DNA of 64,000 nt from the NCBI GenBank assembly GCA_028554795.2, contig CM068828.1, positions 14,622,814 through 14,686,813 of the forward strand, given 5' to 3'. Source of the DNA: Sinohyriopsis cumingii. Taxonomy: Eukaryota > Mollusca > Bivalvia > Unionida > Unionidae. Below, piece after piece: positions 6,977-24,567 of this stretch (the first letter of the stretch is position 1; every line of letters begins with the position of its first letter). Under the pieces are notes generated by a model that saw only the letters and a list, made by a program, of their open reading frames with translations, had not been told where the DNA came from and made no database searches. The translations under genes were made by a program, and so were the position numbers.

Positions 6977-7304
6977 AGTAGTGAAAGGGGTTAGTTTAGC
7001 CTCAATGGGAATTAGCATTACAGACCCCCCTGGGCAAGTTTAGCCTCAATGGAAATTTAACATTAACCACCCTGGGCAAGTTTAGCCTCAATGGAAATTT
7101 AACATGGGCAAAAAACCCTGGGCAAGTTTAGCCTCAGTGGAATTTAACATTGGAAGAAAAAGACGTTTGGGCCTGTTGAGCCTCAAGGGGAAATGGAATA
7201 GGGTTGGGACCCTATTTTGTTTTTAAAGTAAAAAAAGGGTAGGCAATGGAAAGTCATTCTCTTTTCGAGACCTATGAGTGGCCCTGAAAAGGGCCTTTGG
7301 GTTT
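6977..7304 (+). repeat. Polinton terminal inverted repeat, left
   Basis: It matches the reverse complement of 24240-24567 with about nine differences. The outer part holds four copies of GTTTAGCCTCAATGG (at 6994, 7038, 7080 and 7126) spaced 42-46 bases. The inner edge holds a histone-type hairpin (7280-7295) that serves the minus-strand gene next to it. Confidence 0.95.
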
Positions 7305-7701
7305 CTTCTTCTTCTAATTTCTTCTGTTTCTCCACCAACTTCTTATTTTCTGTCCTACACTCTTTCTCTTGTTTTCTTTCTTTTCTTCCTTTTTTCTCTT
7401 CTTTCTTCTTCTCCTCCTCTTCTTTCTTCCTCTTCTCATTTTCTTCTTCTTTTTCAATTTTTTCATTCCATGCTCTTATCCTTATCCTTTCCTCTTCATC
7501 CTCCTTCTTCTCCTTTATTTCTTTCATCACATCACTTATCATGTCCTTTACTTTTCGTAAATTGTTAATCTCCATCTTCACTCGATGGGGACTATAAGAA
7601 TAGTGATCTTCAATTAGCCTCACTAGCATTTGTTCCATCATGCCCAAATTGTCCAGGACGTCTTGCAATGTTTGCATTTTATCGAGGTGGTTTGAAGCCA
7701 T
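7183..7701 (-). CDS. Polinton accessory gene A: charged coiled-coil protein
   Basis: The ATG at 7699-7701 is preceded by a TATA-like box (TATAAG on the minus strand, 7743-7748) and two copies of a shared upstream module. The N-terminal 70 residues (MASNHLDKMQTLQDVLDNL onward) look helical. The rest is almost pure Glu/Lys/Arg, a long charged coiled coil. No known domain is seen. The frame stays open through the histone-type hairpin at 7280-7295 into the inverted repeat, so the true C-terminus is uncertain. It is the last of three short minus-strand genes (C, B, A) with the same promoter module and the same kind of 3' hairpin. A role in packaging or chromatin is possible but is not shown. Confidence 0.55.
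   Translation of the reverse strand: MASNHLDKMQTLQDVLDNLGMMEQMLVRLIEDHYSYSPHRVKMEINNLRKVKDMISDVMKEIKEKKEDEEERIRIRAWNEKIEKEEENEKRKKEEEEKKKEEKKGRKERKQEKECRTENKKLVEKQKKLEEEETQRPFSGPLIGLEKRMTFHCLPFFYFKNKIGSQPYSISP
7280..7295 (-). promoter_or_regulatory. Histone-type 3' stem-loop, gene A (in left TIR)
   Basis: In the minus sense the sequence reads CCAAA GGCCCTTTTCAGGGCC ACTCA: a 6-bp stem, UUUC loop, A-rich 5' flank and ACYCA 3' flank, as in metazoan replication-dependent histone mRNAs. A purine-rich stretch (GAAAAGAGAATGAC) follows about 12 bases later, where U7 snRNA would pair. Confidence 0.75.
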
Positions 7702-7742
7702 CTTCTCTGTAGAATGGTTTGAACGACGAATACTGTGGATTC

Positions 7743-7846
7743 TTATACAAAAAGCGCGGACGTGATGGAAAACATCCCCTATGACATAAAATTGATATTA
7801 CCTAAATCATAAGCAAACAACGCGCGGACGTGAAGGAAAACATCCA
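7743..7846 (-). promoter_or_regulatory. Promoter of gene A: TATA and doubled upstream module
   Basis: Reading the minus strand, two modules of the form GGATGTTTTCC-WTCACGTCCGCGC lie at about 7820-7846 and 7751-7778, followed within a few bases by TATAAG (7743-7748) and the ATG about 42 bases on. The same module and spacing occur before genes B and C. Confidence 0.6.
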
Positions 7847-7849
7847 CTA

Positions 7850-8204
7850 CTTTCTCATTTCATATAATCTACTATCCACATAAGTGAAGTAACATTTAAC
7901 AAACCCCAAATCTACTATTTACACACTCAAATCATTAAAACAAAATCCATAATTTACTATCCACACAATCGTACGTGAGCGGTTACAAAACCCAAACTAT
8001 ACTCTCCACATACGCTAAGAAACAATAAACAAACCCATAATCTACTATTCACACAAACGTACGTGAGCGCTTACAAACACAAACACACAAACACACAAAC
8101 ACATACCCTCACACTAGGAAAAAAAGAGTCAGTGTTTATATTCACACTACTCTACATACACACATTGGCAAATCGATTGTTATTTCTTTTCTAGAGTATT
8201 GGGT
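7850..8204. other. Spacer between genes B and A
   Basis: It is A/C-rich on the plus strand with repeated short motifs (TCTACTATYCACACAA, GTACGTGAGCG). The segment 8041-8225 is a near copy of 8850-9036, showing that genes B and C share a duplicated 3' cassette. No gene is seen in it. Confidence 0.6.
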
Positions 8205-8220
8205 AGCCCTGAAAAGGGCT
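8205..8220 (-). promoter_or_regulatory. Histone-type 3' stem-loop, gene B
   Basis: In the minus sense: AAACAAAC AGCCCTTTTCAGGGCT ACCCA, then GAAAAGAAATAAC about 14 bases later. The stem is 6 bp with a UUUC loop. The ACCCA after the stem is the canonical histone flank. Confidence 0.78.
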
Positions 8221-8310
8221 GTTTGTTTTTTTTAACTCCAGATGCACCTATTTAATGCTGGCACCTTCCTGGTCTGGCGCCACACACACATCTTCTTCCC
8301 CAGTCTCCTT

Positions 8311-8511
8311 TTACCTTTTTTCTTGGGAGTGCAGAGGCGGCATAAGTGGCTTCAGAATCCCAATTTTCTGTCTCTGGGATTCTGAAATTTCTTCTCTCCT
8401 TTTCCTCCTCTTCTTTTTTCTTCTTTCCTCCTCCTCTCTCATCCTTCCCTCTTCGACAATCGCCTCCGCGGCCAGTTCATTTAACAGGCACCTGGCATAT
8501 TCCAGGTGCAT
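8311..8511 (-). CDS. Polinton accessory gene B: short charged helical protein
   Basis: The first ATG is at 8509-8511, giving 66 residues (MHLEYARCLLNELAAEAIV onward). The frame is open further upstream but without an ATG. An N-terminal helix is followed by a Glu/Arg/Lys-rich segment with EEEERRKKKRRKRREE and a short Pro-containing tail. No known domain is seen. It sits between genes C and A, reads the same way, and has its own TATA box (CTATAAAT, minus strand, 8600-8607), upstream module (8611-8638) and histone-type hairpin about 90 bases past the stop. General build resembles gene A, but direct homology cannot be judged by eye. Confidence 0.5.
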   Translation of the reverse strand: MHLEYARCLLNELAAEAIVEEGRMREEEERRKKKRRKRREEISESQRQKIGILKPLMPPLHSQEKR

Positions 8512-8599
8512 CTGGAGTTCTAGCAGTTTCACAATTCTGGTGTTTATTCTGGTGGTGTTGATCAATCAAAAAGGGTGGCTAGACTGCCGAACGAGTTTC

Positions 8600-8638
8600 A
8601 ATTTATAGTAAAAGCGCGGATGTGATGGAAAACATCCC
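8600..8638 (-). promoter_or_regulatory. Promoter of gene B
   Basis: On the minus strand GGGATGTTTTCCATCACATCCGCGC (8612-8638, two halves) runs into TTTTACTATAAAT. A decayed second module lies near 8680-8700. The layout matches that of gene A. Confidence 0.55.
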
Positions 8639-9012
8639 CCTAAAAACATAAAATTGATCTTACCTAGATCATGACCAAACAACGCGCGGACCTAAAAGAA
8701 ACACTCACTCACTTTTTTATACTACCCATTACTATTCTAAACAAATTTTCATTAATCACTTCAATATACTATCCACATACGCAAAGCAATCAAACCCCAA
8801 ATCTACTCTCCCCACACGTCAAACAGCAAAAAGAACAAACATGATCTTAATCTACTATCCACACAAACGTACGTGAGCACTTACAAACACACAATCCTAT
8901 ACACAAACACATACCCTCACACTAGGAAAAAAAGAGTTAGTGTTTATATTCACACTACTCTACCTACACACATTGGCAAATCGATTGTTATTTCTTTTCT
9001 AGAGTTTGGGGT

Positions 9013-9028
9013 AGCCCTGAAAAGGGCT
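9013..9028 (-). promoter_or_regulatory. Histone-type 3' stem-loop, gene C
   Basis: In the minus sense: AAAAAAAC AGCCCTTTTCAGGGCT ACCCC, then GAAAAGAAATAAC downstream. It is the same hairpin as that of gene B and lies in the duplicated cassette. Confidence 0.75.
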
Positions 9029-9185
9029 GTTTTTTTGTTTGCTATGGCAATCTTTTAGTTTCTAAGAATGCGACGTCCTCTGAGGATAGACTTTCTGACG
9101 ATAGGTCTGCTTCTTCGGAAAGAGAAGAAGAACTCTTTGGTGTCATACGACAATCGACAAAGCCTCTGTCAGGTTCAGGTTCCTG

Positions 9186-9416
9186 CTACTGCTGCTGCTG
9201 TTGTTGTTGCTGTTGCTGCTGTCTCTGAAGTCTGTACTTCTCTGTCCATTCTTCTTTCTCCCTGTTCACGTCTTCTCTGAAGAGCTTTTCTATCTGGTCT
9301 TCAGTGACTTTTAACATTCTCACATTCTCTATCTCTTCTGGCTTCGGTATCAGACTGTGTCTGACCCTATGCAAATTCACGTAGGCTTCGTTTAGCTTAG
9401 CTAGTTTGGAGCACAT
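9186..9416 (-). CDS. Polinton accessory gene C: short helical protein with poly-Gln tail
   Basis: I choose the ATG at 9414-9416 because the promoter module (9480-9507) and a TATA-like box lie just upstream of it. The frame does stay open to an earlier ATG at 9545, but that would put the promoter inside the gene. The product is about 76 residues (MCSKLAKLNEAYVNLHRVR onward), helical and charged, ending in about twelve Gln encoded by a CAG/CAA run. A histone-type hairpin lies about 160 bases past the stop. It is the first of the three tandem short genes next to the left end. No known family is recognised. Confidence 0.5.
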   Translation of the reverse strand: MCSKLAKLNEAYVNLHRVRHSLIPKPEEIENVRMLKVTEDQIEKLFREDVNREKEEWTEKYRLQRQQQQQQQQQQQ

Positions 9417-9479
9417 CTTCGTAGGAGGATGAGTCGACAATGGATGGTTAGACTGGAAACTCCCCCGGTTCTTAAAGTC

Positions 9480-9507
9480 AAAGCGCGGACGTGAAGGAAA
9501 ACATCCC
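9480..9507 (-). promoter_or_regulatory. Promoter module of gene C
   Basis: On the minus strand GGGATGTTTTCC-TTCACGTCCGCGC is followed by TTTGACTTTAAGAACC, where TTTAAG takes the place of the TATA box. This matches the modules of genes A and B. Confidence 0.55.
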
Positions 9508-9549
9508 TCTACGGTTTTCGAGCCGCAACGTTCAATGAGTGTCATGAGA

Positions 9550-9731
9550 AGGATAGTAAGAAGTCAAAGAGCATCAATCCAACATTCTTCTAGCTAAACA
9601 AACCACAAAGGCATTTTTTTCAAAACACAACATTTTTTATTCAAAAAATCACTTAACACTAAACAGCAACTCTAACATTTTTAACAATAATCCAACATGA
9701 TAACATCAAACATTTTTTTTCAATTCACACT
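9550..9731 (-). terminator. 3' end of the main minus-strand gene cluster, poly(A) signal
   Basis: A minus-strand AATAAA lies at 9636-9641, about 90 bases past the protease stop, in AT-rich DNA. There is no histone-type hairpin here, in contrast to the short end genes. Confidence 0.5.
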
Positions 9732-10292
9732 CTACTTTAAACAGGGCTGACAACGTTGTGAATGAAATTGTGATTTCCACTGTTGGAAGTCATTAGGCCA
9801 TTGATGGACACTACGTTTCCTAGCTTGAGACAAAAGATAAGCATAATGGTCACAAAACCATCGATCTGCTTTCACATCGTTTCTTGAAGAAGAACGAGGA
9901 TCAAAATGAGTCACTAAATGTTCTAAGGAATAGCCCAGGTTGCGATGATGCAGAAAATACACACAATATTGTCCACACACCAAGGAATCTGTGCCTTGTA
10001 ATTTCACATTATTGAATCGGGTGGTCTGAGCATTTCTTCTCATAAAGTCAATGATATCGTCTTCAAAAGGGGGCAATCCGTACGAATCAAAATATTCCAC
10101 ACATCCTTCTTGAGGAAAGTAGACGGTTACCCAGTGGGTTCCTGGGAGATGACTGTCGTCCGTGTTGATCACGTAAGCTTGATGGTCTTTAGGTTTGCGA
10201 TGAGGGAGTTCATCTTTAGCACAGACGACAGGATTCCAAGAAGCCGTATACGAACTGTGGTTCAAAAGGTAATAAAGTTCCCAGGTATCCAT
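9732..10292 (-). CDS. Adenovirus-type cysteine protease (Polinton PRO)
   Basis: In the family this protease matures capsid proteins inside the virion. From the ATG at 10290-10292 the product is about 186 residues (MDTWELYYLLN onward), close to adenoviral protease length. The catalytic order His, Asp/Glu, Cys is visible: GTHWVTVYF, EYFDSYG and the Cys in GQYCVYFLHHR. The frame looks whole. A slightly longer frame begins at a non-ATG codon at 10316. It lies 20 bases downstream of the small Cys/His gene and is the last gene of the main cluster. Confidence 0.9.
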   Translation of the reverse strand: MDTWELYYLLNHSSYTASWNPVVCAKDELPHRKPKDHQAYVINTDDSHLPGTHWVTVYFPQEGCVEYFDSYGLPPFEDDIIDFMRRNAQTTRFNNVKLQGTDSLVCGQYCVYFLHHRNLGYSLEHLVTHFDPRSSSRNDVKADRWFCDHYAYLLSQARKRSVHQWPNDFQQWKSQFHSQRCQPCLK

Positions 10293-10312
10293 TGATTTGT
10301 GTGGTTTTTTCT

Positions 10313-10816
10313 TCACAGGTAATGATAAGTCATCAATTCGATCCTGACCTTTTGCTTGAAAATGTCTGACAAGTAAAAGGCGTTTGGCTCCGACTTCTTA
10401 TTCTGGTCCAAGAGAGATTCGATGCGACGGCGCTCCAGAGACGTTAATGAAGGAGAAGAATGTTTATCAAAGCCTTTATACCACTCGTTCAACACGAATT
10501 CTATCTCGATGACACCCCAAGCTTTGTCCAGATATTCGTCCAATTTTTCTTCTTGGCTCAACATCAGGCATTTGTCGTGTTGAATTTGACTGGGATGATC
10601 GTTGTGACATCCATAGCACTCTTCCTTGATCAATTCTTTCATTACATCTGTCAGGAATGTAGCAAAACAGGAAACTAAATGGGCTTCTTGTTCTGGCCAT
10701 CTTGACTTCATCATTATCACTTCTTTGTCTTTGTCTTGGGATTCTTCTTCCACAGTTTCCTCACATTCCATCTCCAAAGTTTCTCCACTAGGTAAAGAGG
10801 GATAACAGTCTTCCAT
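10313..10816 (-). CDS. Small acidic Cys/His-motif protein of Polinton
   Basis: The 167-residue product has an acidic, Ser/Glu-rich first 35 residues, then a segment YGCHNDHPSQIQHDKCL around residue 70 with Cys and His placed like a metal site, then a helical tail. Similar HPSQ-containing small proteins are, as far as I recall, common in Polintons and related elements, but I know of no function. The frame looks whole, begins at an ATG, and sits between the capsid and protease genes in the minus-strand cluster. Confidence 0.65.
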   Translation of the reverse strand: MEDCYPSLPSGETLEMECEETVEEESQDKDKEVIMMKSRWPEQEAHLVSCFATFLTDVMKELIKEECYGCHNDHPSQIQHDKCLMLSQEEKLDEYLDKAWGVIEIEFVLNEWYKGFDKHSSPSLTSLERRRIESLLDQNKKSEPNAFYLSDIFKQKVRIELMTYHYL

Positions 10817-10821
10817 GGCTT

Positions 10822-12129
10822 CTAATAATCTAGAATAACTTCTCTCAAACTGTTGATTTCTATGGTATTATCAAATTCTGCATACAGGATGACGTTCACT
10901 GTGTTCTCTGCGGGTAAAGGTTCTTCAAACTGAATTTCCACACGAATCTGGCCGGATTTTATAGGGTGGAAATGTCCCTCGTCGCTGCCTTGGTCTGGAG
11001 TGAAATCGAAAGCCCACAAAGCATAATCCTCGTATGTAATACCGTGACTGGTGCTGATTCCTAACTGTCCGGTGGCTTCGTACAGGGACAAGTACGATCT
11101 CAAATAATTCCTGTCACCAAACTTAGGTTCGAAAGGTCGGGTACACAAGGTCTTGCCATCGCGACTGACTTCGATTTTGGACACATTGTAATGTTGAAAG
11201 TTGAAAGGATTTTCATGGTAGGTTCCGTTGAAGGCTGAATTCTTGACGATACCAACAATCAAACGCTTGAGTAACTGTCCTTGGAACAGATGGTCTTCGA
11301 TCATGGATCGCTGTCCAGTGGGAATCGTGAACGTTTTCACTTCCACTCGTCGGATCGGATACTTGGCGGTCGTTCTGCTCAATGTCTGACTGATGTCGTT
11401 TCCCACTTTAGGTAACACTTCCACACGACGCACGTAGAATCTGGCTTTTTGAATGATAGTTTTGTAAGTGGCATCACGAGCAGCCATCAAATGGAAAGCG
11501 GCACTGCTGCGATTCAGTCTCAGACGGATATCCACCCCGTTCAGCAAATATTTCTCTTGCAACCACATGTCCAAATACAAAGGATCCATCAGTTCTAAAG
11601 TGCGACTTAGTGCAATTTTCGATCGTCGTTCTACAAATCCCGTTAAATTTGAATCATTCCCAGCAATTGCAATGGTGTCAAACTTAGTCGCTTTGTCAGG
11701 TTTCCATACCACGCAAGCATCCAGATGAGTGTTCTTGGCTTCTTTTCCGTACGTCAAGAGATTTTCCAGGTACGCTCGGTAAGGGTAAGTATCCATGCTG
11801 CTGCTGACGAGTTTGTTATTCAAGTACAAGTCCACGTCGCTAAACAAGAAATGCATGAAATTATTGACGGGAGCTACTGCTTCATCAGCGTCTAGGTTAG
11901 CCTTGGATGGTTCGATCACTTTCACTTTCAAGCACAGGTAACTGCTATTCAGATCGACGTAATCTTCGGGTTGTCCTTTGATTTCAAACTCGATGGGAGC
12001 GGAATCGGTCAATGAGGAGACGGGATGAAATTCCACCCACTGGGATTCTTGCATCGTCATCATGGTGGGTGGCATGGCAAACAGATCCAGTTCCGTCTTG
12101 GAACAAGCGCAAGATTCTCGGTGCATCAT
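10822..12129 (-). CDS. Major capsid protein (hexon-like, double jelly roll)
   Basis: From the ATG at 12127-12129 the product is about 435 residues. Family marks are plain: YVDLNSSYLCLKVKV, FSDVDLYLNNKLVSS, YPYRAYLENLLTYG, QEKYLLNGVDIRLRL, AKYPIRRVEVKTFTIP, FNGTYHENPFNFQHYN. Invertebrate databases often list relatives under an F54H12.2-like label. In the family it forms the trimeric facets of an icosahedral capsid. The frame looks whole. It lies between the small basic protein gene and the Cys/His gene. Confidence 0.9.
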   Translation of the reverse strand: MMHRESCACSKTELDLFAMPPTMMTMQESQWVEFHPVSSLTDSAPIEFEIKGQPEDYVDLNSSYLCLKVKVIEPSKANLDADEAVAPVNNFMHFLFSDVDLYLNNKLVSSSMDTYPYRAYLENLLTYGKEAKNTHLDACVVWKPDKATKFDTIAIAGNDSNLTGFVERRSKIALSRTLELMDPLYLDMWLQEKYLLNGVDIRLRLNRSSAAFHLMAARDATYKTIIQKARFYVRRVEVLPKVGNDISQTLSRTTAKYPIRRVEVKTFTIPTGQRSMIEDHLFQGQLLKRLIVGIVKNSAFNGTYHENPFNFQHYNVSKIEVSRDGKTLCTRPFEPKFGDRNYLRSYLSLYEATGQLGISTSHGITYEDYALWAFDFTPDQGSDEGHFHPIKSGQIRVEIQFEEPLPAENTVNVILYAEFDNTIEINSLREVILDY

Positions 12130-12151
12130 TTTTTTTCTGCGTCTCAATACT

Positions 12152-12577
12152 TTAATAATCGAAAACGTCTAAGTCTCGAACGGTTCTTCTTTTCTTTGTC
12201 TTTCTGGCTTTAGAAGTGTGAAGTCTGGTGAAAGGGTGTTTTCTTCGTCGTCTCTTTCTGCCTTGTCCTTGCTGAATGCCTGACCCGGTAGCGTGCAGGG
12301 CATTTATAGGTGTGTCTCGGCGGCCCAAAAGGTCTTTGCCCGTTTGCAGCAAGACATTTTTGCCTGCCCTCATGAAGGCTTCTTTAGGATTTTGTTTGTC
12401 GATGATGACATTTTGGAGAAATTCTTTGCCTTGCGTCAGTGCCGCATCTTTCAAGGCGTGCAAGCCGCGTGTCACCATCGGTTTCAACACAGGGGCCACC
12501 GAACGAAAGGCCGATTTTAACATATCTCCTAAACCGTGTCCTCGCTGTCCAGCAACCCCTCGGTACACTGGATACAT
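12152..12577 (-). CDS. Small basic virion-type protein (pX/mu-like candidate)
   Basis: The 141-residue product starts MYPVYRGVAGQRGHGLGD, has an amphipathic middle, and ends in a very basic tail (RKRRRRKH, KARKTKKRR). Place, size and a Gly-rich N-terminus followed by basic clusters suit a DNA-binding core or membrane-active minor virion protein, as proposed for adintoviruses, but the assignment is by position and composition only. The frame looks whole; its ATG (12575-12577) lies four bases past the end of the penton gene region. Confidence 0.55.
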   Translation of the reverse strand: MYPVYRGVAGQRGHGLGDMLKSAFRSVAPVLKPMVTRGLHALKDAALTQGKEFLQNVIIDKQNPKEAFMRAGKNVLLQTGKDLLGRRDTPINALHATGSGIQQGQGRKRRRRKHPFTRLHTSKARKTKKRRTVRDLDVFDY

Positions 12578-12580
12578 GAC

Positions 12581-13514
12581 TTACGAGTCGTGAGAGAACC
12601 GTTTTCGAAAATGGAGTTTCACCGTGACTTTTCCTTTGGTGAATGGAATATTTTGTCCCAGATCTCCTTTTATAGCAATGTTGACCGTGTCCAAATACGT
12701 CTTGCTGACAAGCAAATAGTGAGGATGTACAAATTCGCGGTGGACGTGATAAGTGTTTCCACCTTCCTAGTCAGCGTTCGTGGCATAATCTTCTTTGAAA
12801 GGAATGACACGCAGTAACGGCACAGAGGTGTGTCCCACCACGTTGTACTCCACCACATCGGAATACACGAAAATCAAATTCAGTCCTTGGTTCAGTTCTA
12901 CCGGGGCACGAAATAACTTGCTAAAAGACTCGTTGTCGTAAATGATTGGTAATTCCTTTTTCTTGATCATGGCCATTCTCATGTCCATGTCTCCGCCCAA
13001 CATGTCAAACAATTCAGGACAAAATAAAATGGACACGATTTTACTCCCGTCAAATTTCATCAAGAAGCGACGAGCTGCTTTGTGGTATTCCAGGGTGACA
13101 CTTTTTTTGACACTTTCCAAAAGCTTTAAGAAACACGACATTAAACCTGGAGGCTATGATGCTGACCAAATGTTGACCACTAAAATAATAGCCTGGAGGA
13201 ATGAACAAGTGATAGGCGGTGTACTTTTGACTTTTTGAGCTAGGGGTTTTCTTGTCATATTTGCCATAGGTATCCAAGTACTGTTGCAATGGTTCGTCAT
13301 GAACTTCCACATCAAAAACATTTTGATTGGGAAGGACATTGAGGACTTGGGTTGGGTGAATGATTTCTACTAAAGCCACTTCCCAATGGGCTTCGTGATC
13401 TAATGGGATGGCCTGAGGTAATTTGGCCGTGTAACAGCACAATGTGTTGTTGGGAAACACCTCCATGGAACTGTCACTGGGTAAGGTTAAGTAAAATTGG
13501 TTTTGGTGACTCAT
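12581..13514 (-). pseudogene. Penton-like minor capsid protein gene, broken
   Basis: The N-terminus (MSHQNQFYLTLPSDSSMEV) and later parts (VGHTSVPLLRVIPF and a final FTKGKVTVKLHF type segment) are those of the Polinton minor capsid protein, a single-jelly-roll relative of viral penton bases that fills the capsid vertices. The gene does not read in one frame, so this copy is broken, with one or two breaks. It begins in a 4-base overlap with the stop of the membrane protein gene. Confidence 0.82.
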
Positions 13515-13927
13515 AATTCCAGAGTTATGTGGCTGTCCGAGGGGTTACTGGACGTCAGAGGCGTGTCTCCGCCTAAAATTGGGTCGTTGTTGTTGTTATT
13601 GGACTGGTGACTGGCACTGGCACTGGACACAAGGTTCCCGTGGTTCCCGTTCGAAGAGAATTTCAGGGAGGGATTGGGAAGCAGGTAACCGATGCAACTG
13701 CTCAATAAAATGGTCCACAATTGTTTGTCTCCTTGTTGCAAACTCAAATTGGCAATGGCTGCCCCGATGACACAATACACCACGAAGATTTGGCAGAAAA
13801 AGACGATTTGCGTTTTAGGCACACGTTCTCCGCACCACACCCACAAGGGTTGTTTTTGCAAATCTTGTAGAGAAGAACTGGGTGAAGGATTGGTAGCCGT
13901 AGTAGCTGCGTCTGTGTGAAAGGGCAT
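13511..13927 (-). CDS. Small two-span membrane protein of Polinton
   Basis: From the ATG at 13925-13927 the product is about 138 residues. A Pro/Ser-rich start is followed by VWCGERVPKTQIVFFCQIF running into a first membrane span, a short loop, a second span ending in SSCIGYLLPNPSL, and a low-complexity Ser/Asn tail. I recall closely similar segments next to integrase genes in other Polintons, but know of no function. The frame looks whole and overlaps the penton start by four bases. Confidence 0.7.
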   Translation of the reverse strand: MPFHTDAATTATNPSPSSSLQDLQKQPLWVWCGERVPKTQIVFFCQIFVVYCVIGAAIANLSLQQGDKQLWTILLSSCIGYLLPNPSLKFSSNGNHGNLVSSASASHQSNNNNNDPILGGDTPLTSSNPSDSHITLEL

Positions 13928-13932
13928 GATGG

Positions 13933-15042
13933 TCACTTCTTTTTATAGTCGATGACTTGCGAAGCGTCCATCCAGGAATCAAAACTGGGTGGACATCCTT
14001 TCCAACGTACTTTGACTTCTTTGACACGTCGTCTGCCTACTTTACGGGTTCTGAGTTCGAGAATGCTTTCGATGTCGTACACGTCGTCTTCTTTTTTGGT
14101 GACACGTTGTAACTCGGGCAAATAAAACGTTCCTTTGAGCACTTCTCCGTTCATGTCTTCCAATTTATAGACGGCAGGATGACGGCCATGCACTCGTCCA
14201 GTGACGCGAAACAATTCGGTCGTCCAGTTAGGTAAGTAACCTTTGTCGAAAGTGAATTTGGTTTTGCCAATGCGCACCCAATCTTCTACGGCCAACATTC
14301 TACATTTCTTGGGGACAGCCCTCGTCGGGGACGTACCAAACAGGCGCTCAAACACCAACACTTCGTTGTCGGTAGTCACGTCTTGCGGGGCACGTCCGAT
14401 GCTTCGATGGTAAGATTGGTTGTACGCTTGCACCAGGTGCGGTAAGATGTCGATGTACTTCAGAGTGTGGTGATGCGTAAAATATTTCCACATGCGTTCT
14501 TTCAAAGTGCGTTGGAAACGTTCCACGATGCTGGCTTTGGTTTCTGGATTCTCGGTGGTAAAAAAATGATTGTCACGTTTCTTTAATTCTTTTTGGAAAG
14601 CTTGGTTCAGAAATTCGGTACCTTTGTCCGTTTGCCATCGAAGAGGGTGACGACCACTTTGTTTCAACACCCGTTGCAGGGCTCGCAATAACTCGCTGCT
14701 CGATTTGGAAGTCAAGGGCACGACCCAGGCAAATTTGGAAAAGACGTCGATGACACAAAACAAATATTTGTAGCCGCGATTGTAGCTGGCCAAATGAGAG
14801 ACATCGGCTAAATCGGCTTGCCATTGATGATCGATGCCTTCCACTCGGGTGCGATTTCTGGGAAACTTGCGTCGAATGGGTTTGTGTAAAGTGTAGGTAG
14901 CTTGTCCTTGTAACCATCGTTGCACTTGAGGTAAACGGAGACTTTTCAGTCGAGTTTTGGCAGCACGATACAATTTTTGAACTCCTGCGTAACCTGCAGG
15001 ATGGGAGGGATCGTAGTAAATGCTGGCTAAGACTTTTTCCAT
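13933..15042 (-). CDS. Retroviral-type integrase with C-terminal chromodomain
   Basis: The 369-residue product inserts element DNA into the host genome in the family's life cycle. The rve core shows the acidic residues in WQADLAD (about D77), QTDKGTEF (about D139) and SIVERFQRTL (about E174). The last 55 residues (YDIESILELRTRK, VKVRWKGCPPSFDSWM) form a chromodomain, which in other integrases steers insertion to marked chromatin. The frame looks whole and starts at an ATG. The 6-bp target duplication fits this enzyme class. Confidence 0.92.
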   Translation of the reverse strand: MEKVLASIYYDPSHPAGYAGVQKLYRAAKTRLKSLRLPQVQRWLQGQATYTLHKPIRRKFPRNRTRVEGIDHQWQADLADVSHLASYNRGYKYLFCVIDVFSKFAWVVPLTSKSSSELLRALQRVLKQSGRHPLRWQTDKGTEFLNQAFQKELKKRDNHFFTTENPETKASIVERFQRTLKERMWKYFTHHHTLKYIDILPHLVQAYNQSYHRSIGRAPQDVTTDNEVLVFERLFGTSPTRAVPKKCRMLAVEDWVRIGKTKFTFDKGYLPNWTTELFRVTGRVHGRHPAVYKLEDMNGEVLKGTFYLPELQRVTKKEDDVYDIESILELRTRKVGRRRVKEVKVRWKGCPPSFDSWMDASQVIDYKKK

Positions 15043-17222: not shown

Positions 17223-17289
17223 GTTGACGTTGTGTGAGACAGACGAAAAGGGTCTGAGGTTTTTATAGATTTTTTTTTGTGGAGTGAAA

Positions 17290-17766
17290 TTAAGTCGAGG
17301 ACGGAGACGTATACAGGACAGGCCCTCCGTCTTGGCACCAGTTGTGAAACAAGTGGGTAAGAAATCGCAAATCATCGGGGCTCGTAGGTTTCAAATCGAC
17401 GAGTAAATAGGCGAGTGGAGTTTGAGTGGCATCGTCGTACGCCTGAGTCAGCCAAGGCGTTCCTAACTGTTTGGCTAAGACTTGCACTTGCGATTTATCT
17501 CGAGGGCTTTTAAACAAGACCACGTAATGCGCTTTGAGACTGATGGAGCGATGGGCTTTACTTTGTTGAAACAAATTTTGGGTGATGTAAACGACACTGG
17601 CATTACGGTGATACCCTTTGCGCGTGAACCACAGTTTAATTTCTTCTTCGTCACAACGTACAGCATCGTACCCATCGCAAGGCTCACAATCGCATTCCAC
17701 TTCCGAAGCCCCACACTTGAATTGTGCCTGTCTAAACTTGTTTTGTGTTTCTCTGAAAGTATTCAT
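17290..17766 (-). pseudogene. Packaging ATPase (FtsK/A32-like), only part recognisable
   Basis: The segment from about residue 50 on (GYHRNASVVYITQNLFQQSK, SISLKAHYVVLFKSPRDKSQ, DLKPTSPDDLRFLTHLF) is the C-terminal part of the Polinton genome-packaging ATPase, with the conserved TQN sensor and FKSPRD. The first 50 residues are unusually rich in Cys and acidic residues and are not familiar. I can recognise only part of the family's usual domain, so this copy is counted as broken. The ATG at 17764-17766 is a guess. Confidence 0.75.
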
Positions 17767-17824
17767 CTTGTTCACTCGGTATTGGTAGTCCCAATGAACT
17801 ATCGATCTTGACTATAGCCCCTTT

Positions 17825-18283
17825 TTATACTAGTTGCAATGCAGTCTCAAGCTTGTACATCGTTTCTTTTTTATGTTTTTTATGTCTTGTTTTGGAAGGT
17901 ACCGTCTCTAAGGTACCGTCATCATTGTACCGTAATGTCATGGTTGGAAAGGCCATAGAAAGGTAAGGGCAGTGCGGAGACCATCGAGTATGTTCCAGAA
18001 TAGCTGAATCTTTATAGATACATAGATCCATTCGTAACTTCAGCCCACAAGCGAAACACTGTACTTCATATCCCAATCCTGACTCAGGTCCCAAGTAGAC
18101 AAATCCTGTTCTAGCTAAAATATGCGAAGAAGGTAATCCTTTCCTATCCGTAGGCCATGCTTGAAACGTGTCCAATCGACGGGCACAATCACAATAGTCA
18201 GGTAAGAAGAGTGGAAAATGGTAGGGTTTGAACTTGGAGTTCTCATCGGGTTTCTCACTCGATTCTTGCTGTGGCGAAGTCAT
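17825..18283 (-). CDS. BIR-domain (inhibitor-of-apoptosis-like) protein
   Basis: The 152-residue product starts at an ATG and contains one baculoviral IAP repeat at about residues 32-110: RLDTFQAWP at the start, then the zinc ligands in CFACG (C-x2-C), the His in EHTRWSPHCPYL and the last Cys seven residues on. The Gly that usually leads into the first Cys is replaced by a GLGYEV segment. No RING finger follows; the tail is short and basic. In baculoviruses and hosts such domains bind caspases or mitotic partners. Its place between polymerase and ATPase genes shows that it is element cargo, not a host exon. Confidence 0.85.
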   Translation of the reverse strand: MTSPQQESSEKPDENSKFKPYHFPLFLPDYCDCARRLDTFQAWPTDRKGLPSSHILARTGFVYLGPESGLGYEVQCFACGLKLRMDLCIYKDSAILEHTRWSPHCPYLSMAFPTMTLRYNDDGTLETVPSKTRHKKHKKETMYKLETALQLV

Positions 18284-18306
18284 CCTTCTGGTGGGTGGCT
18301 ATCCGC

Positions 18307-21300
18307 TTACAACCAAAGTTTTATACCAACATATCCATACGGCAAAGTGAAATGATTGGGCAGTCGCACTCGCTTCTGGTACACGATTTGATAGACATTT
18401 TCCAAGGGTCGACTGACGATGTGGTGAGTGGGTAAACGTACAATCTTGTTGGGTTGATAGGTGGTCACTTTAAAGTGTTCATCCTCTCCCGATTGCAAGG
18501 CTTCTTTCAATACCCCAAAGTTGACCACACGACTGGTACGATAATTCAGAGTCAATCCTTTCACTTTGCACGTCGTGTGCACTTCTCCTTGTGGGTCCCG
18601 GTATTCGTAGCCGTAATTTTTTGGACCGCCACTGACGAAACTTAGAATCTTGTCGTCGGGATGCTCGTCTGTCCAGGCTCCTAAACGGTCTCCTTCGATG
18701 TCAAGGTGCTGTTGAATCGGATGATGGATGTAAATGCAACTGTCCGTGTCAAAGTACAGGACGCGTTCCCCTAACAGTTCTAAAGCTTCGTACAATTTTA
18801 AGCGAGCATGAGCTGTCACGTAAGCCGCAATGATGACATTTCCAAAAGGGTCGTCTTGTACAAAGTCCAGATCTTCTTCGTAATTGACCAAGATCAAATT
18901 CTCTCGAACGACGTAAACGTGTTTCATGTATTTGGTTTTGTCGTGAATCATCTGGAAGTAGCGGGAAGGTTCTGTCAAATATTCCGTCTTGGGTAAACAC
19001 GGTCGTTGTGCCATTTTACCCCACAAGCAATTTAACATCACTTTGGCAAACGATCGCCTGCATTCGTTTTTCTCGATGTGGTCTAAAGAGATGCCTTCTT
19101 GTTCATAGTATTTCTCTTTGAATGTCTTTTGGTCTTCGGGAGTGTGACACCAGGAAGGATAGCCACTGGCTTCTTGTTCCAGTTTCAAAAAGGCATCCAC
19201 GTAGTCAGCGAAAATACCTTTCTGAGTGGGGTCACCCTTGTGGTATTGTTGTGTCTTGGGAAAGTGACAAATTTCGTACACTTCTAACAGCTGGTATCCC
19301 ATGTCCAGAGCTTTGAACAATTCTACGCTAACCCAGGTTCCCGTCAAGGCCCGTTCTTCCTGGGTGTGCTGACAAGGCTGATCTTGGTTGCACGTTTCGG
19401 CACAAGTACGACACAATGGAAACATCAGTTTGCCTTGACAATGGTGAGGTAAGACGGGATGGTACAAGTCCGTGGGAGGCAAAACTTTGCACTTGATCAA
19501 GCCTTCGTATTGTCGAATGTTTTTCAGGTCGATGTGTTCCGTTAACAATTGCGGGTGCCCTACAGGAAAGCGATAATATTTGCACACATAGGGATACAGC
19601 GAACACACGTCCAAGTATTTGACTTCTTCTCCTTTCTCTTCGTCGGCTTGGTACAGCAAACAGGTGGCATTGGTCCTTCCTCCGTACAAACTATCCCTCG
19701 GGTTCAGCGGGTCCATGAACTGGTAACTTTCCACGAAGCGTTTAAACTCGGGATCGGTTTTCATACGGTGATCGTACTCGTGTTCCCACATTTCCACCCT
19801 TTGGTATCCTTCCTCTTCTAACTTTAGGCGTCGCTGATAAGTGGCCTGGTACAAGTCTTCCATGGTTCGTTGTAAAAACTGATTTTTAGTGTAACGGTCA
19901 GGGTAAGAGACGGGACATCCGTGAAATAAGCAACCGTTAAACTCGTACACGATCTTGGGGTTTCCTAAGTCGCAGCCATCGACCGATTGCGTTCCGATGG
20001 TTATTTCGCCCCCTCCGTTACGGGCATGCTGAATCCACTTGTCTTCCTTGTCGCACAAGTAATGTAACCAGCGTAGGGCTTTGACCGAGTATTGACGTTT
20101 GACATAGTGGGTCGTTTGAGGACTGATGACAGCTACGGTGTTTTCAGGCATGAATCGTTGTCGATACACTAAGGAACACGCTCTGGCAATGGTGCAAGCT
20201 TCTTTCAAAGGATCGACCCCTCCGTGTTCCATGAACAGTTCTCGAAATTTTCCACAGCAACGTCGTAAAATGTCCACGTCGGAACGACAATAATTTAGCA
20301 TTTCTAACTGAAAGTCGAAAGGGTCAGAGGCGTGAGTCTGGTACCAAGCGTAGAAAGCTTCTCGTTGTTCGGTACGCATGTTGTCGGGGTCGTAACAGTG
20401 AGCCTCAGGTAAATGGGGTAGAACGGCGTGTTGATTGGCTTCCGTATTGAAAAAGTGTGGAAAGTACCCTTTAGCCATTTCTGTCATTCCAAACGTTTTA
20501 GGCATTCGGCTCAAAGGCATGGCCAAATAGCTCATCGAATCTTTAAACTGCACTTGTCCCACTTGCATGAAAATGATTTTGGCTCCGTTCAAAGTCACTT
20601 TAGGACGTTCGGTGCCATGCTCCGTATAGTATCTGAGAAGAAACTGTCCATCGTATCCGGAGAAATTGTGAGCCATCACCGTGGCATGACGATGACAATC
20701 TCCGTAACGTTCGATGTCCTCTTGGCTCCACGTCTTGTCGATGGGGTCTAAGACCCATCGAGCGAAATCGGCTAGCGTGTTCGGTCCTCGAAAGATTTTT
20801 TCACGTCCTCCAGGAATCTTGCTGCAGTGAGGGCAATGACTGAATATAGGTTCTTGAATGCACTTCTCGCACGCTCGATGAGCCACGCAGAAATTAGGAA
20901 TGTGAATGCCAGTCTCTTGCATGCATTCGAAATCGAAAAAGATGAAATTGCCTTTCTTCTTGTGACCGTCCTCTTTCTCTGGTGGGGGTTGGTATTTTTG
21001 CACGTAGCATTGGTGTTCCAAGTCCACGATGTGATGACAAATGTGACATTTTTTTTTCCTGAACATACGTGTGCCTTGACATTATTGGTACGTAGGCCTT
21101 GTCCACACGTAGGGCACAATCTCAGAAGTTGACAAGCACATTTCTGCTGTGAACCTTGCATCTTCAGATGTTGTTGGTAACAGGTAGGGCTGACAAACGT
21201 ACGCAGACAAGCAGGACAATGTACTCTTTCTTGTCCTTCGCTCAGACAGGGTGGAGAGGCCAAACATCCTGAGCATTTCCATCCGCTATGTTTGTGTTGC

Positions 21301-22096
21301 TCTCGATTGTTATAGCCATAGTCACATTTCTCACAGTAATAACTGTATCGCAGGAATGCAGTGATACTGGTAATGGTATCGAAATGGTCATCGTGATAAT
21401 AGACATGAATGTATTTTCCGTCCTTAAAGTCTTTCCCTCGAAACAACAGAGGTCAGCGCACTTCTTGAGGGTGCACTTTCAAGGTGTAGCGTGTAGCTAG
21501 TACATCTTGCAATTTTTGCATCTCAGGAATGCCACAGGGTGTGTCTTTGGGCAAGTCGGCTTGTTGTAACAGGAGTTCTGCTTCGTTTCGTTGTTTGGCT
21601 CGGTCCGATTGTCGAATAGTTTTCCAGGCTCTTTTCCATTCTGTCGTGTCGTTCTTGTTGGCATAGGTTCGTCCCACCACGATGGCTCGGGCTAAACACA
21701 TCTGGTCTTGAGAATTGTGAATTTGGACGAGACTCTTTTTGGTGCTGCGAAGGTCGTTCACCAGTAACACCTTATTGCGTTGTCCGGTCCCTTGAGGAGG
21801 AGAGACGTGGGTCATGTCCAGTATGGCTTTTCCATCGGTGATGTCAAACTTGTCATTGGATTGTTGCACGTGTTGAATCTTGTCCATGACTTTGGAAGCA
21901 GTTAGTTCTGCGGGTCTGCTAACTCGATCCAAACAGGGGATTTCAAACCGTTGTGCCGTATGGAAAGTCTCAAGCGATCGTCTTCTTGGGGTTGACATTG
22001 TCGCTTGAGTGCGGCGAGCAAAGAATCCCACACCCCAGTGATGAACCCTTCTGCTTTCTCTAACGGTACTTCGGACTTGAAATCTTTAAACTTCAC
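18307..22096 (-). pseudogene. Protein-primed DNA polymerase B gene, broken
   Basis: In the family this enzyme copies the linear element from a protein primer. Reading the minus strand one meets an N-terminal family segment, a Cys-rich zinc-finger region, the 3'-5' exonuclease motifs (FFDFEC, AHNFSGYDGQF, YCRSDVDILRR) and the polymerase motifs A (DVCSLYPY), B (KVMLNCLWGK) and C (FDTDSCIYI). The catalytic part is one long open frame, but the gene as a whole is broken, with about three breaks. It is the longest gene of the element and typical in order for a Polinton. Confidence 0.92.
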
Positions 22097-22150
22097 TGTG
22101 TATTTGTAAGCCGTGGTTCTAAATTTTCTAGAGGAGCGCTTTTCCGTCTC

Positions 22151-22351
22151 TCAAATGGAATAGTACTTTTCAGGGTTGACTAAGGGAGGCGAACTTTGTT
22201 TAGAGGGTTCGGATTCTGGTTCACTCATGTCCTCTTCAAAATCACTGGCAAGAATTTGTGCCAAGACTTCAGCCCTGGTACGAGGCGATAGATCACGTTT
22301 CTGCCTCTTACTTTCTTCTTCTTTCTTCTCGAATGAATAGGATCGTTTCAT
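22151..22351 (-). CDS. Short acidic protein with a nuclear-signal-like start
   Basis: The 66-residue product starts at an ATG (22349-22351), opens with Lys/Arg/Glu-rich sequence including SKRQKRD (a possible nuclear signal) and continues acidic and Ser/Pro-rich. No family is recognised. It lies upstream of the polymerase and is divergent from the zinc-knuckle gene, with its own TATA box at 22399-22406. It may be a regulatory protein; this is inference from place and charge only. Confidence 0.45.
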   Translation of the reverse strand: MKRSYSFEKKEEESKRQKRDLSPRTRAEVLAQILASDFEEDMSEPESEPSKQSSPPLVNPEKYYSI

Positions 22352-22484
22352 CTTGAGTGAAAAACGTCAAATGACTCAAGTTTAAACACCATGGACTAAT
22401 TTATAGTCATGGCAGACCAGCGTATATAAAAGGGTGTGTGTCTTGTCCTTTCACTATTCATTTCACTCTCAAACCGAGCACAAC
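22352..22484. promoter_or_regulatory. Divergent promoter between 22151-22351 and the zinc-knuckle gene
   Basis: The plus strand has TATATAAAA at 22423-22431, about 55 bases before an ATG at 22485. The minus strand has CTATAAAT at 22399-22406, about 50 bases before the ATG at 22351. The inverted pair TTGAGTGAAAAACG and TGACTCAAG lies near 22353-22380. Confidence 0.6.
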
Positions 22485-22929
22485 GATGGAAGAGACTAGC
22501 CAAATCGAACGTTTCATCTGAGCTTTGCGAGGGGTCATTAGAAAATTCTCTTCAGACCAGCCGACGGACTACTCTCCTTCCTTTCAAGATAAAAGTCAAG
22601 ATACTTGCTATATCTGTCGAAAGAAAGGGCATTGGTCTTCAGAGTGTCCAGACCGTCAAAAAAGAAAAACAGGGGCTAGAAAAGACAAAAGTCAAGATAC
22701 CTGTTATTATTGTCAAGAAAAAGGACATTGGTCTCCAGATTGCCCAAAAAAGAAACAAGAGGAGTCAGAAGAAAAGAGGGATTCTTCAGAAGAGAGGGAT
22801 TCGTCAGAGGAAGAAAGCAGCCAGATGAAGAAAAAGAAACAGGAGAAGAAAAGAAGAAGGGAAGAAAGTGAGGAGGAAGAGGAGGAAAAGACTGTGACGG
22901 TGAAGAAATTGAAAAAACAGAGAGAGTAA
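22485..22929 (+). pseudogene. Zinc-knuckle (two CCHC) protein of Polinton
   Basis: The frame ending at 22929 carries two retroviral-type zinc knuckles, CYICRKKGHWSSECP and CYYCQEKGHWSPDCP, each C-x2-C-x4-H-x4-C and each preceded by DKSQDT, so one arose by duplication of the other. A long Glu/Ser/Lys tail with KKKKQEKKRRR follows. Such knuckles bind single-stranded nucleic acid. The start is not clear: the TATA-linked ATG at 22485 does not lead straight into the knuckle frame, so the gene is probably broken. No histone-type hairpin follows. Confidence 0.6.
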
Positions 22930-23161
22930 ACAATGAGATAGGAGAAGTCTATGAACTTTTTAAAGCGTTCTTTTGTGAATTGTGAATTGTATTGTAACTA
23001 TTAAGAAAAGAATACATTAATTATATAAGGTAAGGGTCTTTGAGTTTTGATTTTAAAATAAGAAGCTACACTCACGCACTCATATACACGTACTATTGGG
23101 GTAAAATGGGTTTTTTTGAATTATTGGCAATTGAAAGTGTATCTCTTCGAGAGACGTGGGT
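22930..23161. other. Spacer between convergent Polinton genes
   Basis: The stretch is AT-rich with no gene. The right part (about 23090-23161) includes AAGAGAT-type purine-rich DNA on the minus strand, which fits a downstream element for the hairpin at 23162. Confidence 0.5.
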
Positions 23162-23177
23162 GGCCCTGAAAAGGGCC
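23162..23177 (-). promoter_or_regulatory. Histone-type 3' stem-loop, gene D
   Basis: In the minus sense: CCAAAAA GGCCCTTTTCAGGGCC ACCCA, then CGAAGAGATAC about 12 bases later. It lies about 20 bases past the stop of gene D, the usual distance for histone mRNAs. It is the closest match of the five to the histone consensus. Confidence 0.8.
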
Positions 23178-23197
23178 TTTTTGGTGAAGGGGTGAGT

Positions 23198-23770
23198 TTA
23201 AGCAATCAACTTTAACTGCCTTAAGCCTTTGCCAATGCCAAGGCCTACTTCTGGACTGCGTAATGTTGATGATGATGATTTGGCTGAAATCACTAAGGGT
23301 GGTACGACAGGCTTAGTCACAGGGTTGACGTGTTTAGCTCGGGAAGGTCGTATTCTCTTCGGTCGTGATAAAGAAGTCTGATACATTTGTTTCAGACTTC
23401 TTAACTCCGCTAAAATGTCTAACAGTATCGTGACCGTTTGATTTTCACCCTCTTGTTTCTTTGCTGCTACTTCTTCTTCTTGTTGTTTTTTTTTTCTTAC
23501 CTCTTCTTCTTGCTGCTGTTGCTGTAGGAGAAAAGCTTGTTCCGCTTCCTTTTGTCGTTGTATAAATTTCTCCAATTCTTCTTTCTGTCTCTGTCTAAAA
23601 TTTTCCACTTGCGGTAATGAAGAAGGTGACGAAGGTTCCGGAACAAACTCTTGCGAGGTAAGAAAATCCTCAAAATCCCAATTTACCTCTTCTGAAAGTA
23701 AGTCCGGGTTCCCTTGGGGGGTCTCCACTGCTGGTGCACCCCAATGGATCGTTTTCTGAGTTTCCGTCAT
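23198..23770 (-). CDS. Polinton accessory gene D: Gln/Glu coiled-coil protein with basic tail
   Basis: The 190-residue product starts at an ATG (23768-23770). Residues 1-55 are acidic and aromatic (NWDFEDFL), 56-105 form a Gln/Glu/Lys-rich coiled coil, 106-135 a Leu-rich helix (TVTILLDILAELRSLKQMY) and the rest is basic with Ser runs (RPKRIRPSRAK). No known domain is seen; it is not a histone. It shares a divergent promoter with gene E and ends in a histone-type hairpin. The general build (coiled coil plus basic tail) would suit a DNA-associated protein, by inference only. Confidence 0.6.
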   Translation of the reverse strand: MTETQKTIHWGAPAVETPQGNPDLLSEEVNWDFEDFLTSQEFVPEPSSPSSLPQVENFRQRQKEELEKFIQRQKEAEQAFLLQQQQQEEEVRKKKQQEEEVAAKKQEGENQTVTILLDILAELRSLKQMYQTSLSRPKRIRPSRAKHVNPVTKPVVPPLVISAKSSSSTLRSPEVGLGIGKGLRQLKLIA

Positions 23771-23989
23771 GTTGAATCACTGTCGCGTAGATTGACTGCA
23801 CACAGGCGCTAGCAAATCTATATAGACCACGTGACGTCACAGACTGCTCTCTTCGGATTGGATGCGGGCTGACTGAATTTTGTAACGCGTGTTCGGATTG
23901 GTGAATGAACTCAATACGTTTCAATCCTTCCTCTACCTATAAATAAACGCAATTCACTGCATTGATTCACCTGTTCTCGTCGCCTCAAG
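23771..23989. promoter_or_regulatory. Divergent promoter of genes D and E, histone-pair-like
   Basis: Two inverted CCAAT boxes (CGGATTGG at 23854-23861 and 23894-23901) lie in the middle. Towards gene D are an E-box (CACGTG, 23828-23833) overlapping a CRE (TGACGTCA, 23832-23839) and a TATA box (CTATATAG, 23817-23824). Towards gene E is TATAAATAA (23938-23946). Both TATA boxes lie about 45-55 bases from their ATG. Histone H2A/H2B pairs in animals share this layout. Confidence 0.6.
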
Positions 23990-24223
23990 ATGTGGACCAC
24001 AGTTGAATCATCCACCCTTGTGTCTTCAATTATGTTTAGGACGGACATGCTAATGTATGTCCGATCCAAGTGGACCGTTATCCACAGGACAGACACCAGT
24101 CTGTGGATACGTAGGATCTACGTAGAAAGGCAAGGATGCATCAAAAGAGTGCTGATTTACGGTCCTACAGTGAGGCGCAGCCTAAGGACAAGAAGAAGAC
24201 CAATGCGGTGCCCCTTATGTTAA
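23990..24223 (+). CDS. Polinton accessory gene E: short basic protein
   Basis: The ATG at 23990 follows TATAAATAA by about 45 bases and the frame ends in TAA at 24221-24223, giving 77 residues. The product starts MWTTVESSTLVSSIMFRTD and ends in a basic Arg-rich tail with a closing Cys pair (SLRTRRRPMRCPLC). No known domain is seen. It is the only short end gene on the plus strand and uses the hairpin inside the right inverted repeat, 24 bases past its stop. Being so short, it is supported mainly by its promoter and hairpin. Confidence 0.5.
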   Translation: MWTTVESSTLVSSIMFRTDMLMYVRSKWTVIHRTDTSLWIRRIYVERQGCIKRVLIYGPTVRRSLRTRRRPMRCPLC

Positions 24224-24239
24224 TGGATACATTAACATA

Positions 24240-24567
24240 AACCCAAAGGCCCTTTTCAGGGCCACTCATAGGTCTCGAAAAGAGAATGACTTTCCATTGT
24301 CTACCCTTTTTTTCTTTAAAAAAAAAAAATAGGGTCCCAACCCTATTCCATTTCCCCTTGAGGCTCAACAGGCCCAAACGTATTTTTCTTCCAATGTTAA
24401 ATTCCATTGAGGCTAAACTTGCCCAGGGTTTTTTGCCCATGTTAAATTTCCATTGAGGCTAAACTTGCCCAGGGTAGTAAATGTTAAATTTCCATTGAGG
24501 CTAAACTTGCCCAGGGAGGTCTGTAATGCTAATTCCCATTGAGGCTAAACTAACCCCTTTCACTACT
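24240..24567 (-). repeat. Polinton terminal inverted repeat, right
   Basis: It is the reverse complement of 6977-7304 with about nine differences, four subterminal GTTTAGCCTCAATGG copies in inverse order, and a histone-type hairpin at its inner edge serving the plus-strand gene E. Confidence 0.95.
24248..24263 (+). promoter_or_regulatory. Histone-type 3' stem-loop, gene E (in right TIR)
   Basis: In the plus sense: CCCAAA GGCCCTTTTCAGGGCC ACTCA, then GAAAAGAGAATGAC. It lies 24 bases past the gene E stop. Because it is inside the inverted repeat, both ends of the element carry the same outward-facing mRNA 3' end. Confidence 0.78.

Follow-up and report, generated by a model that had tools for sequence, protein, structure and literature searches.

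The replication-dependent histone mRNAs of metazoans are described as the sole class without the poly(A) tail of other transcripts (PMC12775136), and bivalve histone mRNAs as having a palindrome near the stop codon, with purine elements in some (PMC6210712). Here we report that the short genes at both ends of a Polinton (Maverick) element finish in what are very probably functional 3' processing sites of the histone type. The element lies in a stretch of 64,000 nucleotides (nt) from the bivalve Sinohyriopsis cumingii (contig CM068828.1, positions 14,622,814 to 14,686,813), which is referred to in its whole length as the window.

The resemblance to metazoan replication-dependent histone genes takes in the stem, the loop, the A-rich 5' flank, the ACCCA-type 3' flank, a purine element 14 nt after the stem and, usually, a position near the stop codon. 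Unlike those genes, the Polinton genes encode short basic or charged mobile-element proteins, with no histone among them. The element resembles other Polintons/Mavericks and adintoviruses in its 6-base-pair (bp) duplication, terminal inverted repeats (TIRs), type-B polymerase, RVE integrase with chromodomain, putative capsid, candidate protease and BIR protein, and differs from them, as far as the literature searched describes them, in the histone-type 3' ends of its genes. In mimiviruses and virophages, too, a hairpin marks the 3' end of the viral message. These 3' ends are long palindromes, however, behind which viral enzymes add poly(A), and they are not known to have an SLBP-type loop, flanks or U7 element.

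The literature searched (most subscription papers and bioRxiv lay outside it) gave no description of histone-type 3' ends as gene ends of Polintons or adintoviruses. The original prediction, made from the DNA letters of the window, knew of none either; a genome scan of polinton-like viruses and virophages does list six stem-loops of the histone 3' untranslated region (UTR), none of them in cryptophyte elements, and in its accessible part leaves them undiscussed (PMC12220804). Among other papers accessible in part, the sections seen record no stem-loop for the 'Histoid' genes of adomaviruses (PMC11071296), make no mention of a stem-loop or SLBP (PMC11244446), or have these terms in the reference list only (PMC5799277).

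Histone-type hairpins at the ends of the element

The window was searched against all Rfam families, and the histone model RF00032 (Rfam Histone3, gathering score 34) matched at five hairpins. These and their downstream elements are as follows (E, expectation value).

7280..7295, minus strand: histone-type stem-loop 1 (TIR copy); RF00032 match 7255-7300, 36.5 bits, E 5.4e-7
7260..7265, minus strand: AAAAGA core, downstream element of hairpin 1, 14 nt after the stem
8205..8220, minus strand: histone-type stem-loop 2, first pair A-U; RF00032 match 8180-8225, 31.5 bits, E 4.1e-5
8185..8190, minus strand: AAAAGA core of the downstream element of hairpin 2, within CTCTAGAAAAGA, a 12-nt stretch that host H2B shares at equal spacing
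9013..9028, minus strand: histone-type stem-loop 3, first pair A-U; RF00032 match 8988-9033, 29.4 bits, E 2.4e-4
8993..8998, minus strand: AAAAGA core, downstream element of hairpin 3
23162..23177, minus strand: histone-type stem-loop 4; RF00032 match 23138-23182, 34.1 bits, E 4.3e-6
23142..23147, minus strand: downstream element of hairpin 4, variant AAGAGA
24248..24263, plus strand: histone-type stem-loop 5 (TIR copy); RF00032 match 24243-24288, 36.5 bits, E 5.4e-7
24278..24283, plus strand: AAAAGA core, downstream element of hairpin 5, 14 nt after the stem

All five 16-nt hairpins of the original prediction, each a 6-bp stem with a UUUC loop (UYUN type), were thus confirmed in position and sense orientation, and the purine-rich stretch said to follow them proved to be AAAAGA, 14 nt after the stem, or AAGAGA in the case of 23162. 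The scan with RF00032 that had been proposed as a check of the window recovered the full set, with three hairpins above the gathering score and two (8205 and 9013) below it; at E up to 10 the 64 kilobases (kb) gave one further match (19.9 bits, E 0.87).

Letters were also counted against the 26-nt metazoan consensus, giving 25, 25, 24, 22 and 20 of 26 for the five hairpins. The best score in 300 random 64-kb sequences was 17 in 42 of them, 18 in 178, 19 in 71 and 20 in nine, and since these maxima reach 20, the 9013 site alone is within the reach of chance by letter count. For the set as a whole, the RF00032 E-values, this random control and the 75 loci on many contigs described below all oppose chance or an assembly artefact; no point was found in favour of either, and we put their probability at next to nil.

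Although five hairpin sites are present, as predicted, they represent three independent contexts rather than five, since the TIR, in its two copies, supplies both 7280 and 24248, and 8205 and 9013 lie inside a 154-nt direct repeat of 92% identity. When the three contexts were compared, hairpin and downstream element stood out by high identity; in the spacer it was about half, and outside it was near background. Two contexts have G-C as the first stem pair, and the third (8205/9013) has A-U. The 3' flank had been given as ACCCA or ACYCA; that of 9013 is ACCCC.

Two of the five hairpins are located in the terminal repeats, as would suit a role at the DNA level, in which cruciforms or protein sites helped the element to replicate or transpose and the likeness to histone ends was secondary. 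The other three are internal and behind genes, however, and for all five matches (5/5) the strand is the sense strand, following the gene. The loop letters, flanks and downstream element also match those of host histone mRNAs, none of which a palindrome alone would need. We consider a DNA-level role very unlikely.

The same element has a second class of 3' end. The capsid/protease cluster had been said to end in an ordinary AATAAA, and this signal is in place behind the protease gene.

9636..9641, minus strand: AATAAA behind the protease gene, the contrasting class of 3' end

It lies approximately 90-115 nt after the stop codon in all three protease copies found (window, L087 and L088; the protease was not found in L086). 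The next gene (L119) has a sense hairpin approximately 190-210 nt beyond its last aligned residue in all four copies (window, L086, L087 and L088), a distance longer than for the other hairpin genes.

Hairpin loci across the host genome

The window's own assembly (2.90 Gb, 1138 contigs) was searched with RF00032, and 75 matches were scored from 589,472 candidates, a lower bound, since the list lacks both the 36.5-bit sites of the window and the host histone genes. These matches, on many contigs, were all over the cut-off; 69 scored 42.6-45.6 bits, and the other six 34.5-36.5 bits. Each of the 75 loci was examined with 1.5 kb on either side, and every one fell, in sense orientation, in one of four families of short Polinton genes: R77 (29 loci), B190 (23), D_MDVE (12) and C_MASN (11). 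A scan of other Polintons had likewise been proposed as a check; the 75 scored host matches all stood behind Polinton genes, and none was seen in the seven distant fragments considered below. That no product is a histone was borne out, in that none of the 75 loci had an H2A, H2B, H3 or H4 motif (H1 was outside the motif set) and no Pfam family was above cut-off for the five short products of the window, with the gene at 7701 represented by its relative from L015.

When the longest open frame of each locus was taken (one of the 75 loci has none), 56 of 74 had a stop codon that precedes the stem by 15-27 nt, the rest lying farther, closer or reading through. Taking all open frames across the 75 loci, a hairpin follows R77 in 43/43 and B190 in 27/28. 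Neighbouring genes that were found by protein, and chosen without regard to hairpin score, gave the same picture. B190 neighbours at R77 loci had a hairpin in 26/26 cases, 22-30 nt beyond the last codon and with 22-26 of 26 letters, three of the 29 R77 loci having been dropped where the C-terminus of the B190 neighbour was not located; R77 neighbours at B190 loci had one in 23/23 cases, 21-27 nt beyond the last codon. Over both sets the hairpins had 22-26 of 26 letters, and the best consensus score in random 200-nt segments of those loci was 17 (n=1350). The neighbour test avoids dependence on score, though not on descent, because its sites share elements with the selected ones.

A second sense hairpin, mostly of the A-U type, was found 806-1447 nt upstream in 21 of 23 left-end loci. 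The outward-facing gene that the TIR hairpin closes differs between the two ends, being R77 on the right and C_MASN or D_MDVE on the left. The left-end place before it was held by C_MASN in L015, L030 and L065 and by D_MDVE in L014 and L072; this left-end gene seems to be exchangeable.

The 75 loci and the window together gave 154 sites that match 20 or more of the 26 letters, and 101 of these are distinct. Among the distinct sites the first stem pair is G-C in 74, A-U in 20, G-U in two and unpaired in five. The loop is UUUC in 97, the 5' flank AAA in 81 and the 3' flank ACCCA in 77 of the 101.

Rates of difference were compared over loci with a recognisable hairpin core, which dropped one frame from the 43 of R77 and one from the 28 of B190. 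In R77 (n=42) the per-site difference was 0.445 at synonymous and 0.089 at nonsynonymous sites, 0.012 in the hairpin and 0.156 in the downstream element; the corresponding values for B190 (n=27) were 0.077, 0.032, 0.014 and 0.142. The region from +60 to +95 gave 0.496 per site in R77 and 0.549 in B190, both ungapped and inflated by insertions and deletions. The contrast between hairpin and synonymous sites is strong for R77, a family with a ratio of nonsynonymous to synonymous rates (dN/dS) of 0.12 over 43 frames (851 of 903 pairs) and a pooled ratio of proportions (pN/pS) of 0.20. As a separate observation, the synonymous difference is far larger in R77 (0.445) than in B190 chosen by start codon (0.077), which suggests subfamilies, a selection effect or exchange between elements.

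The sites might also be relics, the 3' end of a histone gene having been captured once and spread by duplication without function. A single origin would fit the shared block, which extends past the downstream element, and the presence of CTCTAGAAAAGA at 8205 and 9013 in common with host H2B, and the B190 rates show little contrast. Against this, the hairpin differs by 0.012 per site next to 0.445 at the synonymous sites of the adjoining R77, and it stands at short distance behind unrelated genes. The probability of a functionless relic appears to us very slight indeed.

Host histone ends and probable processing of the end genes

In the host genome H4 gave 114 matches, many of them in tandem repeats of approximately 8.3 kb. 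Histone ends were read at five of eight H4 loci, with H3 read at four of these five. H4 and H2B (5/5) and H3 (4/5) end in GGCCCU-(UUUU or UUUC)-AGGGCC with the flank AAAC, and the distance from stop to stem in H3, H4 and H2B is 27-34 nt, one H3 (L093) reading 84 instead of 28. Downstream of all three stands CUAGAAAAGA, with AAAAGA beginning 14 nt past the stem; for H4 an automatic count had returned an earlier AAAAGA at 3 nt, and the AAAAGA of CUAGAAAAGA at 14 nt was read from the sequence.

The Polinton sites follow the same spacing: of the 154, 144 place AAAAGA 14 nt after the stem and two place it at 15 nt. The longer form CT.GAAAAGA is at 14 nt in 105 of the 154; in the 75 loci, 103 of its 110 occurrences are at a hairpin. 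CTCTAGAAAAGA, as in host H2B, is present at 17 Polinton sites, including those at 8205 and 9013 in the window. This agreement between Polinton, H3, H4 and H2B within one genome is the strongest evidence that the sites may be read by host machinery. It supports the proposal that the arrangement is the one recognised by SLBP and the U7 small nuclear ribonucleoprotein (snRNP) in histone mRNAs, the host H3, H4 and H2B genes having a near-identical hairpin and the element at 14 nt. With respect to RF00032, 69 of the 75 scored Polinton hairpins score above the host histone ends that were read (42.6-45.6 versus 35.9-38.2 bits), and six do not.

Pairing with U7 was computed with the 5' end of human U7. 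The 117 distinct family segments pair with it more stably than controls, the p-values over these segments overstating the case because the copies are related. AAAAGAG, the complement of CUCUUUU, is found in 82 of the 117 segments and in 13 of 2250 controls.

The likeliest reading is that the element relies on the host's SLBP/U7 pathway for the production of short poly(A)-minus mRNAs. Host SLBP would bind the hairpin and the host U7 snRNP would pair with the downstream element, and the pre-mRNA would be cut about 5 nt past the stem, leaving a short mRNA without poly(A). Cleavage at the hairpins, the absence of poly(A) and S-phase timing are all inferred. SLBP is mostly an S-phase protein, and the end genes may therefore be S-phase linked and form a group expressed during the cell's DNA replication. 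The capsid/protease genes, which would use ordinary poly(A) signals, could be made at other times. The TIR hairpin would close whichever gene faces outward and would also halt transcription before it leaves the element.

The hairpins could instead bind SLBP for translation or stability only, with cutting and polyadenylation farther downstream, or could lie within a longer 3' UTR. The ATTAAA between stop and hairpin at 8205 and the T-rich stretches after the TIR hairpins would suit such an arrangement. On the other hand, a U7-type element at the host spacing, as seen in 144 of 154 sites, is needed by cleavage alone, and a stop codon 15-27 nt before the stem, as in the 56 of 74 loci with an open frame, is histone-like. 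We consider this explanation unlikely.

Several observations weigh against processing of the end genes by the host machinery. RF00066 gave no match for host U7 among the 65 of 801,960 candidates that were scored, a search in which the controls were also silent. Pairing of the window sites with human U7 is unexceptional, 20-25% of control windows being as stable for four sites and 3.5% for one. In the five stem pairs other than the first, 16 departures were seen, of which five keep and 11 break pairing, so that covariation rests on one inherited change of the first pair. The contrast between hairpin and synonymous sites is weak for B190 (0.014 versus 0.077), and the rates took in only loci with a recognisable hairpin. 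The copies share common ancestors, so the locus counts are not independent. In the window itself two hairpins (8205 and 9013) lie 90 and 157 nt beyond the stop, and an ATTAAA is located between hairpin 8205 and the stop of the 66-amino-acid open reading frame (ORF) ahead of it. Lastly, seven more distant Polinton fragments (L001-L007, capsid 24-43% identical), searched with an E limit of 5 for six of them and of 1 for the seventh, had no RF00032 match, and matching end genes were not found in them. With these points taken into account, the finding is real, and the sites are most likely functional.

The element, its genes and its relatives

Further features of the element, including the genes ahead of the hairpins, are listed here.

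6977..24567, no strand: Polinton (Maverick) element, with AG...CT ends, TIR arms, flanks and core genes
6971-6976 and 24568-24573: target duplication AACACA (6 bp), flanking the Polinton
6977..7304, plus strand: left TIR, histone-type hairpin at its inner end
24239..24567, minus strand: right TIR
7183..7701, minus strand: gene for a charged coiled-coil-like protein (MASNHLDK family), frame shifted, running through hairpin 1
8311..8511, minus strand: 66-amino-acid ORF with abundant charged residues, stop 90 nt before hairpin 8205, TATAAAT near 8606
9186..9416, minus strand: 76-amino-acid ORF (MCSKLAK...), stop 157 nt before hairpin 9013
23198..23770, minus strand: 190-amino-acid gene, stop 20 nt before hairpin 23162
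23990..24223, plus strand: 77-amino-acid basic gene, stop 24 nt before hairpin 24248, TATAAAT near 23938
7740-7778, 7808-7846, 8600-8638 and 9469-9507, minus strand: repeated box (GATGTTTTCC...), upstream of the left-end hairpin genes
9732..10292, minus strand: protease gene, weak match to adenovirus endoprotease, AATAAA downstream

The TIRs of approximately 330 nt, the AG...CT ends and the 6-bp target duplication identify a Polinton/Maverick. So does the pairing of a type-B polymerase (DNA_pol_B_2, PF03175, 9.6e-41 in a Pfam scan of the element proteins) with an RVE integrase (PF00665, 2.4e-13) that has a chromodomain. The protease match (Peptidase_C5, E 0.0093) is under the family cut-off. 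The putative capsid has 746 relatives, and the named ones among the 120 listed are uncharacterized or hypothetical; identity is about 53% in Mercenaria and about 45% in oysters, and the nearest relatives (81%) are in ENA and JGI contigs; the named relatives point to a bivalve host. Twenty-four of the 120 listed made up capsid alignment A1. The element also encodes a BIR (inhibitor of apoptosis) protein at 17825-18283 on the minus strand (PF00653, E 4.2e-14), and its insertion site adjoins what we read from the ORF as the coding sequence of a long interspersed element (LINE)-like reverse transcriptase.

The hairpins had been placed downstream of short genes; the 7701 gene (minus strand) has no in-frame stop ahead of the hairpin in the window copy. 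In the related copies L015, L030 and L065 the protein finishes in ...WWRNRRN and the stop codon precedes the stem by 15-18 nt, and because this C-terminus sits in another frame in the window, the window copy is frame-shifted. A protein search with residues 1-62 of the gene found no relatives. The repeated box GATGTTTTCC... looks like a shared promoter of the left-end gene group; an E2F-like reading of it was dropped as a misfit to the E2F consensus.

The 190-amino-acid product is predicted to be a single long helix spanning residues 53-134, the ends being of low confidence (mean predicted local distance difference test, pLDDT, 66.6; predicted template modelling score, pTM, 0.24). All of its 19 relatives were used in alignment A2, with which a search of solved structures gave one match (E 0.016). 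In P0132, a relative without the usual stop, the predicted protein continues into ...SGPPTSLEKR, which by our reading would fit translation of the hairpin and downstream element. What we read as a zinc-knuckle ORF with two repeated knuckles (22486-22929, plus strand) is convergent to the 190-amino-acid gene and has an early stop in the window copy; on its strand, no AATAAA or ATTAAA is present between the ORF and that gene.

IMG/VR gave no relatives for the capsid sequence, alignment A1, alignment A2 or the integrase, and no match to a strict hairpin pattern. A looser pattern matched three contigs, which were taken as chance, none having an RF00032 match at E up to 1. The seven distant fragments appear to be eukaryote-derived Polinton fragments in genomes of symbionts and other marine bacteria (Escarpia, Bathymodiolus and others); they are contamination of metagenome-assembled genomes and useful for sampling such elements. 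In one of them, from a Bathymodiolus symbiont assembly, the capsid region is closely followed by a candidate twister ribozyme of type P1 (L002:11734-11798, 28.9 bits, E 0.045, below gathering).

Histone-type ends on Polinton genes suggest that the element borrows the cell's replication-linked means of finishing messages. We give roughly even chances to the full picture, namely a regulon of non-histone genes in an animal DNA virus-like element finished by the host histone machinery, its end genes poly(A)-independent and S-phase-locked, its hairpins in many copies nearer the metazoan consensus than those of host histones, and the whole a separate temporal class beside the polyadenylated capsid genes, perhaps one found widely among the Polintons and adintoviruses of bivalves. 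Such transcripts would escape RNA libraries made by poly(A) selection, and expression of the element may therefore be underestimated. The natural hairpin variants are material for testing what the processing machinery accepts. If the picture is true, SLBP and U7 would have a second natural client in a mobile virus-like element, and there would be an explanation of how that element might couple its gene expression to host DNA replication.

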